Source: an uncultured Saprospiraceae bacterium
GTDB lineage: Bacteria; Bacteroidota; Bacteroidia; Chitinophagales; Saprospiraceae
Length of the DNA: 64,000 bases
Reading direction: 5' to 3'
Assembly: GCA_937951615.1 (NCBI GenBank)
Contig: CALFBH010000042.1
Coordinates: 1 to 64,000 of the forward strand
This document shows, in pieces, positions 24,573 through 28,532 of this stretch. A program made the translations under genes and the position numbers. The notes beneath the pieces were generated by a model, which did no database searches, had not been told where the DNA came from, and was given only the letters and a program-made list of their open reading frames with translations. How positions within the stretch are numbered: the stretch's first letter is position 1; every line of letters begins with the position of its first letter.

Positions 24573-26417
24573 ATGAAACTTGAACAAGTACTCAATTACA
24601 CCAACTCATTTGAGAAAAATGCCTTCCTGAAAATCATTGACAACGTCCTTTCTAGCAAACCCAAAAATTATAAAAATATTGAGAAGATATTGAACCAGAC
24701 TGATGGGCAATTAAAAAATGCGGATAGTAAAAGTATTGCTGATGTTCTGTCTTTAATGGATGAAGAATTTGCACTTGTAATCCAGAAAGAATTTACAAAC
24801 ACCGTCACTCAATTAGATATCATCACAGATATTCTTACTAGGGATGGCAATTCTATGATGAAACGGGAATGGTTAGCTCGTCTTTATGAAAAAGAGGTCA
24901 AAAAAATCAAATCGAAACTAAAGGAATTTAAAACGCTTATTGACGATGAAGATAGTGGCAATTCAAGGGTTCGAGACTATAGAATATATCGGGAATGCCT
25001 CCAAACAGCTTATACCAATGACCAAGAAAATAATCAGGAAAATAAGATTACAAAAGACGAACAATCTATACTAATCACATTGGCTAAACAATTGGATTTG
25101 TCTCAGGAAGAGGTCAAATTGATTAACTATATGATTGTCCCTTTAAAACCATTAGACATTGATGAAATCATCAAATACCTAACTAAAATTGGTGTCGTTT
25201 TCTATTCTCGAAAAAACCATCAGGTTTATGTGGCTGATGAGATAATTGAAATGTTGAGAAAGATAAGAGGTAGAGAAGTTGCTGATAAAACCTTCCGAAG
25301 AATTTTAAGAAACCTCAAAGACAGCCAGATAAATCTACTTGCACGAAAACACAATATTGACAGGAAACTCGATCGTTCCAATAAAATCAAGGAAATTATA
25401 AAAGAGGGTATCTCTCTGACAAGTGTTCTTACCAATGGCATATTTAAGGATGACGTAAAAAAATCTGAAAAAAGAACCTTTTTAAACGACCTTATTGAGG
25501 GGAAACTGAAAATAAGCGAAACTATAAGAGGGGCTTCATTTGAAGCTAAAATGGAAAACTTAATTCACTATCTAAAAAATAAAAACCAGGAAGATAAAGT
25601 CAGTATTTCAATCAATGGTTATGAAAAACTGATAACGGATTTGAGTAAAAGCGTGAGACGCTTGAATCGCTTATTAAAAGATGAATTTGAATTACAAGAA
25701 TCTGAGGTGCTGAATGCAAAATTTTTATTGAACTATAATATCAAGCCCATTGATGTTCTTTATCTAATCGAGAAAGACGAATTGAAAACCTTTTGTCAAA
25801 AACACGAAATCTCCATCAGAGGAAATGAGGTTCAAAATGTCTTGGAAAGATACAAAGATGCCGATGATTTACTATTGGACAATTATACCAATATTGCAAA
25901 TCGCGATTTAAACACCTTAAAGGAAAATGGCATTGATATAAAAGAGAGTGAGTTGGGAATTAAGTTTGAGGATGTCACAAAAGTAATATTCAAACAACTG
26001 GGTTTTGATGTTGATGATACCTTGAAAAAAGACATCAGTGACGCTAAAAACAAAGTTGATATTATCCTGAATTTGGGCGGAAATGATATCATCATAATTG
26101 AATGTAAGTCTATAAAAGAAAAAGGTTTTAACAAATACAGCTCTGTATCAAGGCAGGTGAAAGCATACATTGACATCTCCACTAAAAAAGGATATAAAAT
26201 AACAAAAACCTTTATTATAGCTCCAAATTTTTCTGATGATTTCGTTAAAGAATGTGGACTCGATTACGAACTTAATCTTTCCTTAATAACTGCAGCATCA
26301 CTCAAAAAAATTCTGGAAGAATTTGCAGAATCTCAACTGGATGTTTTTCCTTACAAACTACTATTAAGGGACGTTGTTGTAGATGAAGAAAGGGTGATTA
26401 AGGCAATAAAGAAATAA
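24573..26417 (+). CDS. Large protein with C-terminal PD-(D/E)XK (Mrr-like) nuclease domain
   Basis: 614 residues, soluble, Lys- and Glu-rich. The first ~450 residues are mostly helical and match nothing I recognise. Residues about 455-590 look like a restriction-endonuclease fold of the Mrr type: an opening G-I-K-F-E-D-V-T-K-V-I-F-K-Q-L-G-F-D-V, then the catalytic D496, and E510-C-K512 (V-D-I-I-L-N ... I-I-E-C-K-S), with a Q-V-K-A-Y helix after. Mrr-like domains cut DNA and are frequent in defence proteins. It has its own promoter and is convergent with an ATPase that also ends in a nuclease-like motif. No methyltransferase is nearby. DNA cleavage and a defensive role are inferred; the long N-terminal part may sense or bind the target. 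Confidence 0.7.
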   Translation: MKLEQVLNYTNSFEKNAFLKIIDNVLSSKPKNYKNIEKILNQTDGQLKNADSKSIADVLSLMDEEFALVIQKEFTNTVTQLDIITDILTRDGNSMMKREWLARLYEKEVKKIKSKLKEFKTLIDDEDSGNSRVRDYRIYRECLQTAYTNDQENNQENKITKDEQSILITLAKQLDLSQEEVKLINYMIVPLKPLDIDEIIKYLTKIGVVFYSRKNHQVYVADEIIEMLRKIRGREVADKTFRRILRNLKDSQINLLARKHNIDRKLDRSNKIKEIIKEGISLTSVLTNGIFKDDVKKSEKRTFLNDLIEGKLKISETIRGASFEAKMENLIHYLKNKNQEDKVSISINGYEKLITDLSKSVRRLNRLLKDEFELQESEVLNAKFLLNYNIKPIDVLYLIEKDELKTFCQKHEISIRGNEVQNVLERYKDADDLLLDNYTNIANRDLNTLKENGIDIKESELGIKFEDVTKVIFKQLGFDVDDTLKKDISDAKNKVDIILNLGGNDIIIIECKSIKEKGFNKYSSVSRQVKAYIDISTKKGYKITKTFIIAPNFSDDFVKECGLDYELNLSLITAASLKKILEEFAESQLDVFPYKLLLRDVVVDEERVIKAIKK

Positions 26418-26435: not shown

Positions 26436-27857
26436 TCAAAACAAATCCCCCATCCCCACCACATTATCCACTAGTCCAATACTATGCTCATTCGGTAGCA
26501 GTCCGAAGGTGGTGATGAGGACGATAAAGACCTGTTTTTTAGTCTTAGAAGCTTGACGGAAAATGCGGCGTTTGCGGCGTAGCGTGTCGGCATCGACTTT
26601 GGTCAGGGCAAACTGGTCATTATAAAATTTCATTTCACAAAGCGAAATCACATTGTCCTGTCGGTCAATCAGCAGATCTATTTGTGTGCCTTCCTGTTTT
26701 GGAGTGGCTTTGGTGAAAAAGCTAAATTCCTGCGTATAAACTCCTGCAATACCGAGGGCAGTTTTGATTTTATCAATGTGTTGTAGGCAGATATTCTCGA
26801 AGGCATAGCCGCTCCAGGACTTCCACGACTGGGTCTGGCTCAATGCCTGCCAGTTGCCTGCTACATTCGCGGAAAGCGGCTGGATATATTTCAAATAAAA
26901 CAGGGAATAATTATCAATCAATCGAAAAAGTCTGTCTTTCTTCTTTTTGTATAAAGGCACATAAGAAGCGATAAAACCAGACTGTTCCAGTTCTTTGAGA
27001 ATCGTGGTCAATCCTCCTCCATCTTTCATTTTTGTAGCTGCGAGAATATCTGTACGACTGAGTCCAGTCCAACTTGACGCTAGTGCGCTGACGATGTTTT
27101 CATAACGTTCAGGATGCGTAAACAATGAGCTGTATAAATTTTCAAATTCCGTCCGTAGTAGTCCTTGCGGATGAAAGCAGATGTCGTTGATGTTTTGTAC
27201 GGCACTTCGCCCGCCTTCCACCTGGTCGAGATAATGAGGGATACCGCCCATCGTCATATAAAGTTGTATCAATTGATAATCATCAAAAGAAATATTTCTG
27301 GATTGAAAATAGGCTTTCGTTTCTGCAAGGGAAAAAGGCGGCAGAAGTATTTTTCGGGTAACGCGATTATGCAAGCCACCTTTATTATTGATGATTTTTT
27401 TAATCATCCAGGCAGTTGCCGAGCCGCATATTACGACAATGATATTACTCTTGGAAGCATAGCTGTTCCAGAAATAACTAAAGCCAGTCAGAAAGTCAGA
27501 TTTTGCCGTTGCCACCCAGGGTAGTTCGTCAATAAACACTACTTTTTTTCGCTTGACCTTCGGAAGAGCTTCTAAGTATTGCCTTAAAACATGAAAGGCT
27601 TCTAACCAGTCAGCGGGCGTCTTCGTCAGTGGTTTTGCTAATTGAGTGGCGTTTAGGCTGTAAGTGAAATTTTGTAGTTGTTGCTCTCTGCTTCCATCTT
27701 TCAGCCCTACCATTTCAAAATCTATCTGAGGTTCAAAAAAAGTCCTGATGAGATAGGTTTTCCCCACCCGCCTTCTACCAATAACGGCAATAAGTTCAGG
27801 CTTTTTCGAGACTAATGCCTTTTTAAAGGTGCTAATTTCTTTTGTTCTTCCTATCAT
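26436..27857 (-). CDS. ATPase of the ATPase_2/DUF234 family with nuclease-like C-terminus
   Basis: 473 residues from the ATG at 27857, chosen because it begins M-I-G-R-T-K-E-I, the usual family start; an upstream in-frame ATG would run through an operator-like palindrome and lie upstream of the predicted transcription start. Walker A is G-R-R-R-V-G-K-T (27-34) and Walker B V-V-F-I-D-E (106-111). A winged-helix-like region occurs at about 255-325. The C-terminus has D394, E408 and K410 (Q-I-D-L-L-I-D ... C-E-M-K-F), the PD-(D/E)XK pattern seen in DUF234-type proteins. These are AAA+ STAND-like ATPases of unknown role, common in archaea and Bacteroidota and often variable between strains. It ends 18 bp from the convergent nuclease gene. 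Confidence 0.85.
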   Translation of the reverse strand: MIGRTKEISTFKKALVSKKPELIAVIGRRRVGKTYLIRTFFEPQIDFEMVGLKDGSREQQLQNFTYSLNATQLAKPLTKTPADWLEAFHVLRQYLEALPKVKRKKVVFIDELPWVATAKSDFLTGFSYFWNSYASKSNIIVVICGSATAWMIKKIINNKGGLHNRVTRKILLPPFSLAETKAYFQSRNISFDDYQLIQLYMTMGGIPHYLDQVEGGRSAVQNINDICFHPQGLLRTEFENLYSSLFTHPERYENIVSALASSWTGLSRTDILAATKMKDGGGLTTILKELEQSGFIASYVPLYKKKKDRLFRLIDNYSLFYLKYIQPLSANVAGNWQALSQTQSWKSWSGYAFENICLQHIDKIKTALGIAGVYTQEFSFFTKATPKQEGTQIDLLIDRQDNVISLCEMKFYNDQFALTKVDADTLRRKRRIFRQASKTKKQVFIVLITTFGLLPNEHSIGLVDNVVGMGDLF

Positions 27858-27867
27858 TTTCAAGTAT

Positions 27868-28019
27868 ATAAGTTGCTTAATGTACACAAAAATACATAGA
27901 TTCCGCAACTTATTCAACCTATAATCTGCGGAATGTCCCTCGAAATCATGTGATTCCGCAACTTATACACCTCATAAGTTGCGGAATCCACCCCAAAAAC
28001 GTGCGATTCCGCAACCTAT
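27868..28019. repeat. Phased array of 15-bp inverted repeats, 53-bp period
   Basis: Direct arms GATTCCGCAACTTAT begin at 27899, 27952 and 28005 (the last with one change), exactly 53 bp apart. Inverted arms begin at 27868 (degenerate), 27921 (degenerate) and 27974 (perfect), also 53 bp apart. Each complete unit is 15 + 7 + 15 bp plus a 16-bp linker. The middle unit is a perfect 15-bp hairpin. Linkers are partly similar to each other (CA/AAA-rich), so this is a degenerate tandem repeat, not a CRISPR. Confidence 0.85.
27887..27917 (-). promoter_or_regulatory. Promoter of the ATPase gene, embedded in palindromes
   Basis: On the minus strand TTG (27917-27915), 20 bases, then TATTTTTG (27894-27887) matches the Bacteroidota consensus. 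The -33 TTG falls in the loop of the first palindrome and a further half-palindrome (27868-27882) lies at the expected transcription start, about 25 bp before the start codon. A protein binding the palindromes would block this promoter. Confidence 0.65.
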
Positions 28020-28532
28020 CCCTGCAATTATAGCTTGGATTTGCCTGCGTGCGTATTATTAATACTTTGGAATTTGGAATTTTTCTTTTGGAATTTTCAA
28101 CTCTAGGCTGGTCAGGCTGGAAGCCTGAAGTGCTTTTGGCAGTTTAGCAAACTTTGCCTTTCTCTGGTCGAAAATACGGATACAAATTTAAATTCAAAGA
28201 GGAATAAATTTTGCATCTCTGCGAGAAAAATAATGAGGTACAAACTAAAAAACAGGTCATCCACTAAGTCATAATTCTCTGATTTATAATTCTTAATTCA
28301 ATAAAACCAGCTTCATTCGGTATGATTTTTGCTATTCTCGCGTTTTTTTCATAATTTGACGTGACAATCAGCGTTTATTTACGTTTAAAGGTAAGTCTAT
28401 CACTTGGGATATTAGTGCTTGGGATATTGGGATATTAGTTAATTGGCAAAAAAGATGTTGCGCAGCAAAATCAAAAGCCCCCAATATCCCAATCAACCAA
28501 ATATTCCAATCAACTAATTCAACTAGGAACAA
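28020..28532. other. Intergenic region before rpoN
   Basis: About 510 bp without a gene. It contains repeated short words: TTTGGAATTT (28067-28095), and GGGATATTAG/GGGATATTGG (28407-28438) with their inverse CCCAATATCCCAATC (28481-28495), which could pair across about 50 bases just before rpoN. No exact TAnnTTTG box seen near the rpoN start. Confidence 0.6.

Follow-up and report, generated by a model that had tools for sequence, protein, structure and literature searches.

A phased palindromic array at the promoter of a PDC-S27-type ATPase-nuclease gene, a probable private autoregulatory operator

The window studied here is the whole stretch of 64,000 nucleotides that was analysed (positions 1 to 64,000 of contig CALFBH010000042.1, assembly GCA_937951615.1, from an uncultured Saprospiraceae bacterium). 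Our subject is an array of palindromes overlapping the predicted promoter of one of its genes, which encodes an ATPase with a winged helix and a nuclease motif. The features concerned are the following.

26436..27857, minus strand: ATPase gene, 473 aa, AAA+ (ATPase_2)/winged helix/PD-(D/E)XK motif; PADLOC PDC-S27
26628..26678, minus strand: PD-(D/E)XK motif, D394 ... E408-M-K410, from conservation in 200 aligned members
26904..27074, minus strand: winged-helix region, residues 262-318, with 279, 282 and 285 in the recognition helix and 307 in the wing
27756..27779, minus strand: Walker A GRRRVGKT, residues 27-34, from conservation in 200 aligned members
27868..27913, minus strand: operator unit 1, the promoter-proximal dyad, from direct repetition and family half-site spacing
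27921..27966, minus strand: operator unit 2, on the same basis
27974..28019, minus strand: operator unit 3, on the same basis
27887..27894, minus strand: predicted -7 box TATTTTTG, read from the sequence, its position being family-wide
27915..27917, minus strand: predicted -33 TTG, read from the sequence
27899..27935, no strand: tail-to-tail junction of units 1 and 2, whose 7-bp linker (27914-27920) holds the -33 TTG
27952..27988, no strand: tail-to-tail junction of units 2 and 3, a perfect 15-7-15 hairpin

The array and the ATPase-nuclease gene

Three direct 46-nt units lie over 27868-28019 at a step of exactly 53 bp (spacings of 53 and 53), and the array announced in a preliminary description of this DNA is therefore real. 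Compared with the first unit, the second has 70% identity and the third 72%. The units are palindromes of varying perfection, their 15-bp arms enclosing a 16-bp loop, and adjacent units are joined tail-to-tail across 7 bp, which yields the perfect 15-7-15 hairpin. The 15-mer GATTCCGCAACTTAT had been described in three direct and three inverted copies; the direct ones are exact at 27899 and 27952 but have one mismatch at 28005, and among the inverted ones that at 27974 is exact, whereas those at 27868 and 27921 have 3 mismatches each. At up to 3 mismatches the window contains 9 matches to GATTCCGCAACTTAT against 2.43 expected, and none of 100 shuffles reaches 9.

The dyad centre of unit 1 (27890.5) falls inside the predicted -7 box, taken as that of a Bacteroidota-type promoter, and the predicted -33 TTG stands 20 nt upstream of that box. 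The promoter had been placed inside the array with its -33 TTG in a hairpin loop, and this holds, the TTG reading from 27917 to 27915 within the 7-bp linker. The inverted repeat overlaps the -33/-7 promoter, as read from the sequence, of the ATPase gene itself, whose conserved start is the ATG at 27857 (MIGRTKE). Because of the family comparison presented below, we read the 15-7-15 hairpin, perfect as it is at 27952-27988, as a junction between two units and not as the operator dyad that had been suggested; the functional dyad is likely the 46-48-bp palindrome over the -7 box.

Throughout the 6.96-Mb genome, GATTCCGCAACTTAT at up to one mismatch occurs only in the window array and in one pair at G000:C58:6170-6215; at this stringency a repeat scattered through the genome, which would have told against the preliminary description, is ruled out. 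The genome-wide operator search covered, among the paralogs, the window array and the operator of a second locus of this genome, L163, for which an exact gapped-pattern search returned its own gene only. An exact scan of public genomes gave at least 116 stretches with GATTCCGCAACTTAT, a number which we estimate to be within chance for 257 billion bases. Among the stretches listed, the ATPase is found by tblastn (E <=1e-20) only in L141, L129 and L101, while L060, described below, holds a real array without one; L141, L129 and L101 are among the 137 training loci used below, and the other public matches were set aside as evidence. Upstream of the ATPase of L101, at -147 to -62, two different operator-like cores are nested, GATTCCGCGAAATAT and TATAAGTTGCG.

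The protein passes the Pfam cut-offs for ATPase_2 (E 2.6e-17) and AAA_14. It has no match to DUF234 at E <=0.001, and the DUF234-type label first given to it must be replaced by ATPase_2 and PDC-S27; a homologue from the Wolbachia phage WO, 40% identical, is annotated with DUF234. The PADLOC hidden Markov model (HMM) for PDC-S27 (PDLC04984) matches over the full length (E 5.3e-195, residues 1-474 on 3-473 of 474), which makes the ATPase, on profile grounds, a phage-defence candidate of that type. PDC-S27 has been described as an ATPase plus PD-(D/E)XK, with 3503 archaeal and 4562 bacterial systems counted, and validation is called pending for most such defence candidates (PMC12988326). In the 200 aligned members, 6 of the 8 Walker A positions are invariant, position 29 has R in 199 members, position 31 has V in 173 and I in 27, and the Walker B pair D110 and E111 is invariant. 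The PD-(D/E)XK motif of the putative nuclease is likewise kept (D in 198/200, E and K in 200/200).

This genome has 18 matches to the ATPase; any match at all is found in 17 of 40 genomes, its own included, and none in the other 23. In the 24 other genomes the ATPase is never beside rpoN within a flank of up to 1.5 kb, and rpoN is ruled out as a functional partner by this lack of adjacency. The neighbour test comprised 25 loci, two of them (L273 and L288) cut at contig ends; further flanks came from five genomes of the same genus and one of another genus. Convergent with the ATPase gene is a 614-aa open reading frame (ORF; 24573-26417, plus strand) without a Pfam match at E <=0.001, in which a stretch IIIIECK resembles, by eye, a restriction-type nuclease motif.

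An operator geometry shared by the family

Upstream DNA of family members was drawn from relatives, from the class and from the order. Among 106 distinct 200-bp upstreams considered first, 81 have a best inverted repeat scoring at least 12, a score reached by 0.4% of shuffles and by 9 of 102 stretches taken after the genes. When upstreams are anchored on their dyad centres a single geometry appears, with half-sites of the TATANNNGCNNAANCT type, a GC step at 15 and 14 from the centre, and 17-bp half-sites paired at 13-14 bp from each other. One matrix, trained on 137 loci and applied with fixed thresholds to 223 upstreams (training loci included), recognises this geometry in 190 of them versus 1 of 1115 shuffles, and in 67 of 76 upstreams of the hold-out set alone. 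None of 25 stretches at rpoN passes (those of L273 and L283 lie inside the gene), and among the upstreams of the 38 window ORFs of at least 150 aa only one does, that of this ATPase gene.

The step between half-sites on the same strand is most often 52 bp (88 of 365 intervals in 187 distinct good loci), followed by 53 (69), 54 (43) and 51 bp (23), and 118 of these loci have at least 4 half-sites within 400 bp. Since half-site steps of 51-54 bp recur across the family, the 53-bp phase of the window is, judged by this comparison, a family trait, close to five helical turns; the phased palindrome anticipated upstream of homologues is thus borne out. Of 113 proximal dyads, 67 carry a -7-like box TAnnTTT[GAT] no more than 9 bp from their centre, as against 6 of 113 at a shifted control place; the strict form TAnnTTTG is present in 24 versus 0.

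The shared geometry does not imply a shared sequence. Some flanking positions of the half-site are common to most copies (TAT at 21-23, A at 10, T at 7). The two arms of a single locus have a mean core identity of 0.88 (135 loci), but between genes the mean is about 0.5, within one genome too. Mean core similarity is about equal within and between genomes; among pairs below 65% identity, about 1 in 424 within-genome pairs shares 7 of 8 core bases versus about 1.3% of between-genome pairs, figures which are sums of printed bins and are uncorrected for relatedness. This could be a weak sign of selection for insulation among paralogs.

The geometry extends to some distant members. Eight of the 28 phage and plasmid relatives listed were fetched and their upstreams read by hand. 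The Emticicia and Segatella members have the palindrome in register and fit the recognition code described below; in a Phocaeicola member and a near-identical phage contig base 11 fits in both arms and base 13 in one arm only; the Butyrivibrio (Bacillota) member has its palindrome shifted by one step. A scan for close relatives found none in viral contigs. Outside the class, 14 relatives with an ORF were considered, of which 10 have a palindrome score of at least 9, a value reached by 10% of shuffles, and 4 have none; three of the 14 are full-length and score 11 each, and only one of them, L395, from a Verrucomicrobia metagenome-assembled genome (MAG) contig, fits both code and register. Two more distant ATPase_2 relatives, L401 (Verrucomicrobia MAG) and L404 (Kiritimatiellae MAG), have a strong upstream palindrome of another design, CTCAATAATGTGACA, alike in both.

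Winged-helix residues and operator bases that vary together

We then compared 464 protein columns with 17 half-site positions by mutual information with average product correction (APC). The set consisted of 114 loci (effective number 89), obtained from the 137 training loci by dropping 23 for a weak palindrome, with palindrome thresholds chosen after inspecting the dyad-anchored alignment. The five highest of the 7888 pairs all lie in the winged helix: residue 279 with base 13 (APC-corrected value 0.782) and with base 12 (0.480), residue 285 with base 16 (0.405), 282 with 16 (0.401) and 307 with 11 (0.365). The next-ranked pairs, at 0.20-0.23, include residues elsewhere (92, 116, 351), and the largest value in 300 shuffles of the protein-operator pairing was 0.267.

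The position of these residues could be examined on an AlphaFold2 model built from five sequences (best model at a mean predicted local distance difference test score, pLDDT, of 68, the other four at 52-56). Helices 249-260, 268-275 and 281-292 and strands 296-299 and 310-313 form a winged-helix topology, in which 279, 282 and 285 (pLDDT 78-81) stand where the recognition helix begins and 307 (about 66) is in the wing. The model has as fold neighbours PAB2304 (2QEN), SSO1545 (2FNA) and Orc1/Cdc6 on origin DNA (2QBY). A sequence search of the PDB with the ATPase gave no match at E <=0.01.

With bases read on the strand pointing toward the dyad centre, the 114 training loci define a code. At residue 279, Asn goes with T at base 13 in 68 of 74 half-sites, Ser with C in 46 of 48, Thr with C in 10 of 10, Glu with G in 20 of 22, and Asp with G in 40 of 54, the other 14 having T. 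Arg285 goes with G16 in 58 of 66 half-sites, Lys307 with A11 in 130 of 144 and Arg307 with T11 in 37 of 44. Read on the opposite strand, base 13 gives Asn-A, Asp/Glu-C and Ser/Thr-G, and these pairings agree with common contacts of such side chains. The window gene fits, having Asp279 with G13 and G12, and Lys307 with A11.

The code was then frozen and applied to a hold-out set. Genes were found at 87 of its 88 loci and 86 were tested, one being too short; 10 were dropped as more than 80% identical to training or as duplicates. The remaining 76, whose highest identity to training has a median of 62%, included 67 with a confident palindrome. Scored on the loci whose residue is in the frozen code (65 for base 13, 66 for base 11), it gave the correct base 13 in 116 of 130 half-sites, where the commonest base accounts for 52, the correct base 11 in 120 of 132 (commonest base 92) and the correct base 12 in 85 of 98 (commonest base 65). 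G16 was present in 32 of 34 half-sites with Arg285 and in 21 of 100 with other residues.

Relatedness was controlled on a tree of 187 loci built without the winged-helix region, from which approximately independent pairs were taken. Where the two members of a pair have different residues at 279, base 13 differs as well in 27 of 45 cases, but where they share the residue it does so in only 6 of 74. The corresponding counts for residue 307 and base 11 are 18 of 34 and 2 of 72, and none of the 1684 residue-position combinations ranks higher than these two. The direction of change follows the code, Asp versus Asn and Glu versus Asn going with G versus T in 12 and 6 pairs, Ser versus Thr keeping C in 9, and Lys versus Arg going with A versus T in 11. 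Altogether, residues of the DNA-binding domain appear to go with the protein's own site, and the recognition code seems partly deciphered. It is only partial because of the ambiguity of Asp279 and the weaker reading of 285/base 16.

A self-read operator and its alternatives

We propose that the adjoining ATPase-nuclease has in the array a private autoregulatory operator and would act as its own repressor, and we give this reading a probability of roughly 0.8. The operator is real, family-wide and probably self-read. The preliminary description had suggested a multi-operator that binds a dimer cooperatively, possibly the ATPase or an unlinked regulator; this interpretation is supported, and covariation, hold-out prediction and independent pairs favour the ATPase of the two binders. 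In this mechanism the protein's central winged-helix domain would read the 17-bp half-sites. Two of these, 13-14 bp apart, flank the -7 box, so that a dimer bound there would lie over the -33/-7 spacer as well as the transcription start and should repress the gene. The extra units upstream, at about 52.5 bp or five helical turns, would align every site on the same face of the helix, which probably lets several dimers bind cooperatively, perhaps through their AAA+ domains. The ATP state and an infection signal could alter binding by the dimer, with release upon phage infection. In paralogs the half-site core would have changed in step with the recognition residues, allowing some 18 copies to coexist in one genome, each reading mainly its own promoter.

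Several observations weigh against this proposal. Thirty-three of the 223 upstreams are below threshold, including 3 of the 18 paralogs of this genome, and among the 8 relatives fetched the upstreams of the Wolbachia phage WO, Malaciobacter and Desulfosarcina members showed nothing above chance. The -7-like box is near the dyad centre in just 67 of 113 dyads and in its strict form in 24, and 38 -7-like matches at +10 stem from the half-site's own letters. Asp279 pairs with T besides G (40 G and 14 T in training; 26 G, 6 T and 2 A in the hold-out), 285/base 16 is less clean in independent pairs (26 of 49 versus 13 of 63), and the two arms of one locus, like related loci, are statistically non-independent. 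The AlphaFold2 model is middling, with a mean pLDDT of 68 and 60-66 in the wing. Finally, repression does not explain the half-site copies that 25 of 187 loci have behind the stop codon, and of three gene-less sites one is decayed (L389) but two are intact (C58 and L060), so that selection by the resident gene can at most be presumed.

These last points are the ones that an alternative would draw on, namely that the palindromes delimit a mobile unit and are recognised by the ATPase-nuclease to move or excise its gene, promoter control being secondary. The gene is indeed nomadic, as its absence beside rpoN in all 24 other genomes illustrates. At one mismatch, the 25 loci mentioned (one gene, L218/L311, being counted twice) repeat the gene's own half-site no further than 300 bp past the stop, 17 of them with both arms and 15 with a start within 15 bp of the stop; a reversed-sequence control gave 3. 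A palindrome copy stands 0-30 bp after the ATPase stop in L013, L014, L218, L247, L250, L254, L338 and others. The window's own single arm at +104 after the stop is probably due to chance.

Sites that lack a complete gene tell a similar story. L247 reads palindrome-gene-palindrome at a place which is empty in its relative L388; at the place of this element L389 has one partly decayed palindrome (1428-1476) and no gene, which looks like a scar of gene loss. The C58 site (4170-4215 of L169) is an intact palindrome whose core, GTTTCCGCAACTTAT, is near-identical; after it comes a truncated ATPase-like start (MIERKKE), and by its sequence the site is the remnant of an ATPase gene copy. This palindrome is flanked on either side by imperfect copies, about 50 bp long, of the beginning of the following gene. 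In L060 (about 944-1041) an intact two-unit array with the window's core lies between genes that are, by eye, MerR-like and hydrolase-like, and no ATPase was found in its 6.5-kb contig. These loci suggest that the gene and its palindromes are gained and lost together, whether through mobility or through recombination between copies.

On the other hand, 162 of the 187 loci have no after-stop copy at one mismatch, and the scars are explained by recombination between two copies. No target duplication of constant length was seen in the flanks of the 105 genes scanned. Some loci have long flanking direct repeats, for example of 73, 102 and 134 bp, which look partly like dispersed repeats or sit at contig ends; L029, at a contig end, has 134-bp repeats at 97% and L182 73-bp repeats at 94.5%. 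Where the -7 box sits within the dyad answers a need of an operator and not of an element end. We think it unlikely that the palindromes serve primarily as element ends, even if the unit may be mobile as well.

Much less probable is an unlinked regulator that would bind the palindromes and run all these ATPase genes as a regulon. The flanking positions shared by most half-sites are what a common binder needs. Such a regulator would, however, predict one shared site, yet the cores differ between genes, with a mean identity of about 0.5 versus 0.88 between arms, and they covary with residues of the ATPase itself. Still more improbable is a site for a replication initiator (iterons or an origin box), in spite of the resemblance of the model to PAB2304, SSO1545 and Orc1/Cdc6 on origin DNA and of phased repeats beside the gene, which are typical of initiators; the 18 matches in one genome, the conserved nuclease motif, the location of the sites at promoters and the 23 of 40 genomes without a match all speak against it. 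The least probable is an RNA hairpin or attenuator in the leader, as which the perfect 15-7-15 palindrome might pair in RNA: units 2, 3 and half of unit 1 are upstream of the predicted -7 box and so would be untranscribed from that promoter, 67 of 113 dyads have a -7-like box no more than 9 bp from their centre, and covariation with a DNA-binding helix is unexpected for an RNA element.

Parallels to the self-read operator can be drawn with known systems. Inverted repeats are reported upstream of 193 of 347 BrxR homologues (PMC9122601), and RptR represses its own promoter via three motifs over the -10 box (PMC12255303). Both BrxR/CapW and RptR are, as far as these sources describe them, repressors acting on inverted or repeated sites at their own promoter in a defence locus; they are separate regulators, whereas here the predicted reader is the ATPase-nuclease itself and the sites differ among paralogs of the same genome. 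Type II toxin-antitoxin systems and the C proteins of restriction-modification are similar in that a DNA-binding partner autoregulates a possibly harmful gene (PMC12255303), but they use a separate antitoxin or controller where we have one polypeptide. Another relative in transcription is IniR of mycobacteria, an SSO1545-like AAA+ ATPase; unlike in our protein, its DNA-binding domain is SdiA-like and C-terminal, and the main text of its report mentions neither palindrome nor inverted repeat (PMC5760070).

The fold neighbours of our model, SSO1545, PAB2304 and Orc1/Cdc6, are alike in architecture, combining AAA+ with a winged helix, and Orc1/Cdc6 reads origin boxes but is not known to have a PD-(D/E)XK. 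PDC-S27 itself shares with the window protein the full-length HMM match and the ATPase/PD-(D/E)XK layout, and the main text of the paper on it contains none of the terms palindrom, inverted repeat, wHTH (winged helix-turn-helix) or winged helix (PMC12988326). In the open-licence literature, which does not extend to the original candidate paper, we found no operator or palindrome for this ATPase family. An autoregulated defence gene is of a known kind; what is unusual is the proposed design in one protein, with a partly solved recognition code.

A bolder and rather doubtful extension of the autoregulatory operator would be a self-addressed immune module, in which one polypeptide is sensor, repressor and nuclease. 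The private phased operator would hold it off and in place until its AAA+ domain senses an invader and it is released or turned on its target. The palindrome would be an identity tag against paralogs, gained and lost with the gene as a unit, and single-residue changes, to Asn, Asp/Glu or Ser/Thr at 279 and to Lys or Arg at 307, would re-address a copy. If this were true, re-addressing by one residue would let the family multiply within a genome.

Even without this extension, the autoregulatory reading bears on a common and uncharacterised defence candidate, as it gives the middle domain of PDC-S27 a function that can be tested. It supplies cognate DNA sites for assays of binding, structure and switching, together with a set of natural protein-operator pairs. 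It could also account for the presence of many copies of one nuclease in a genome with little cross-repression between them.

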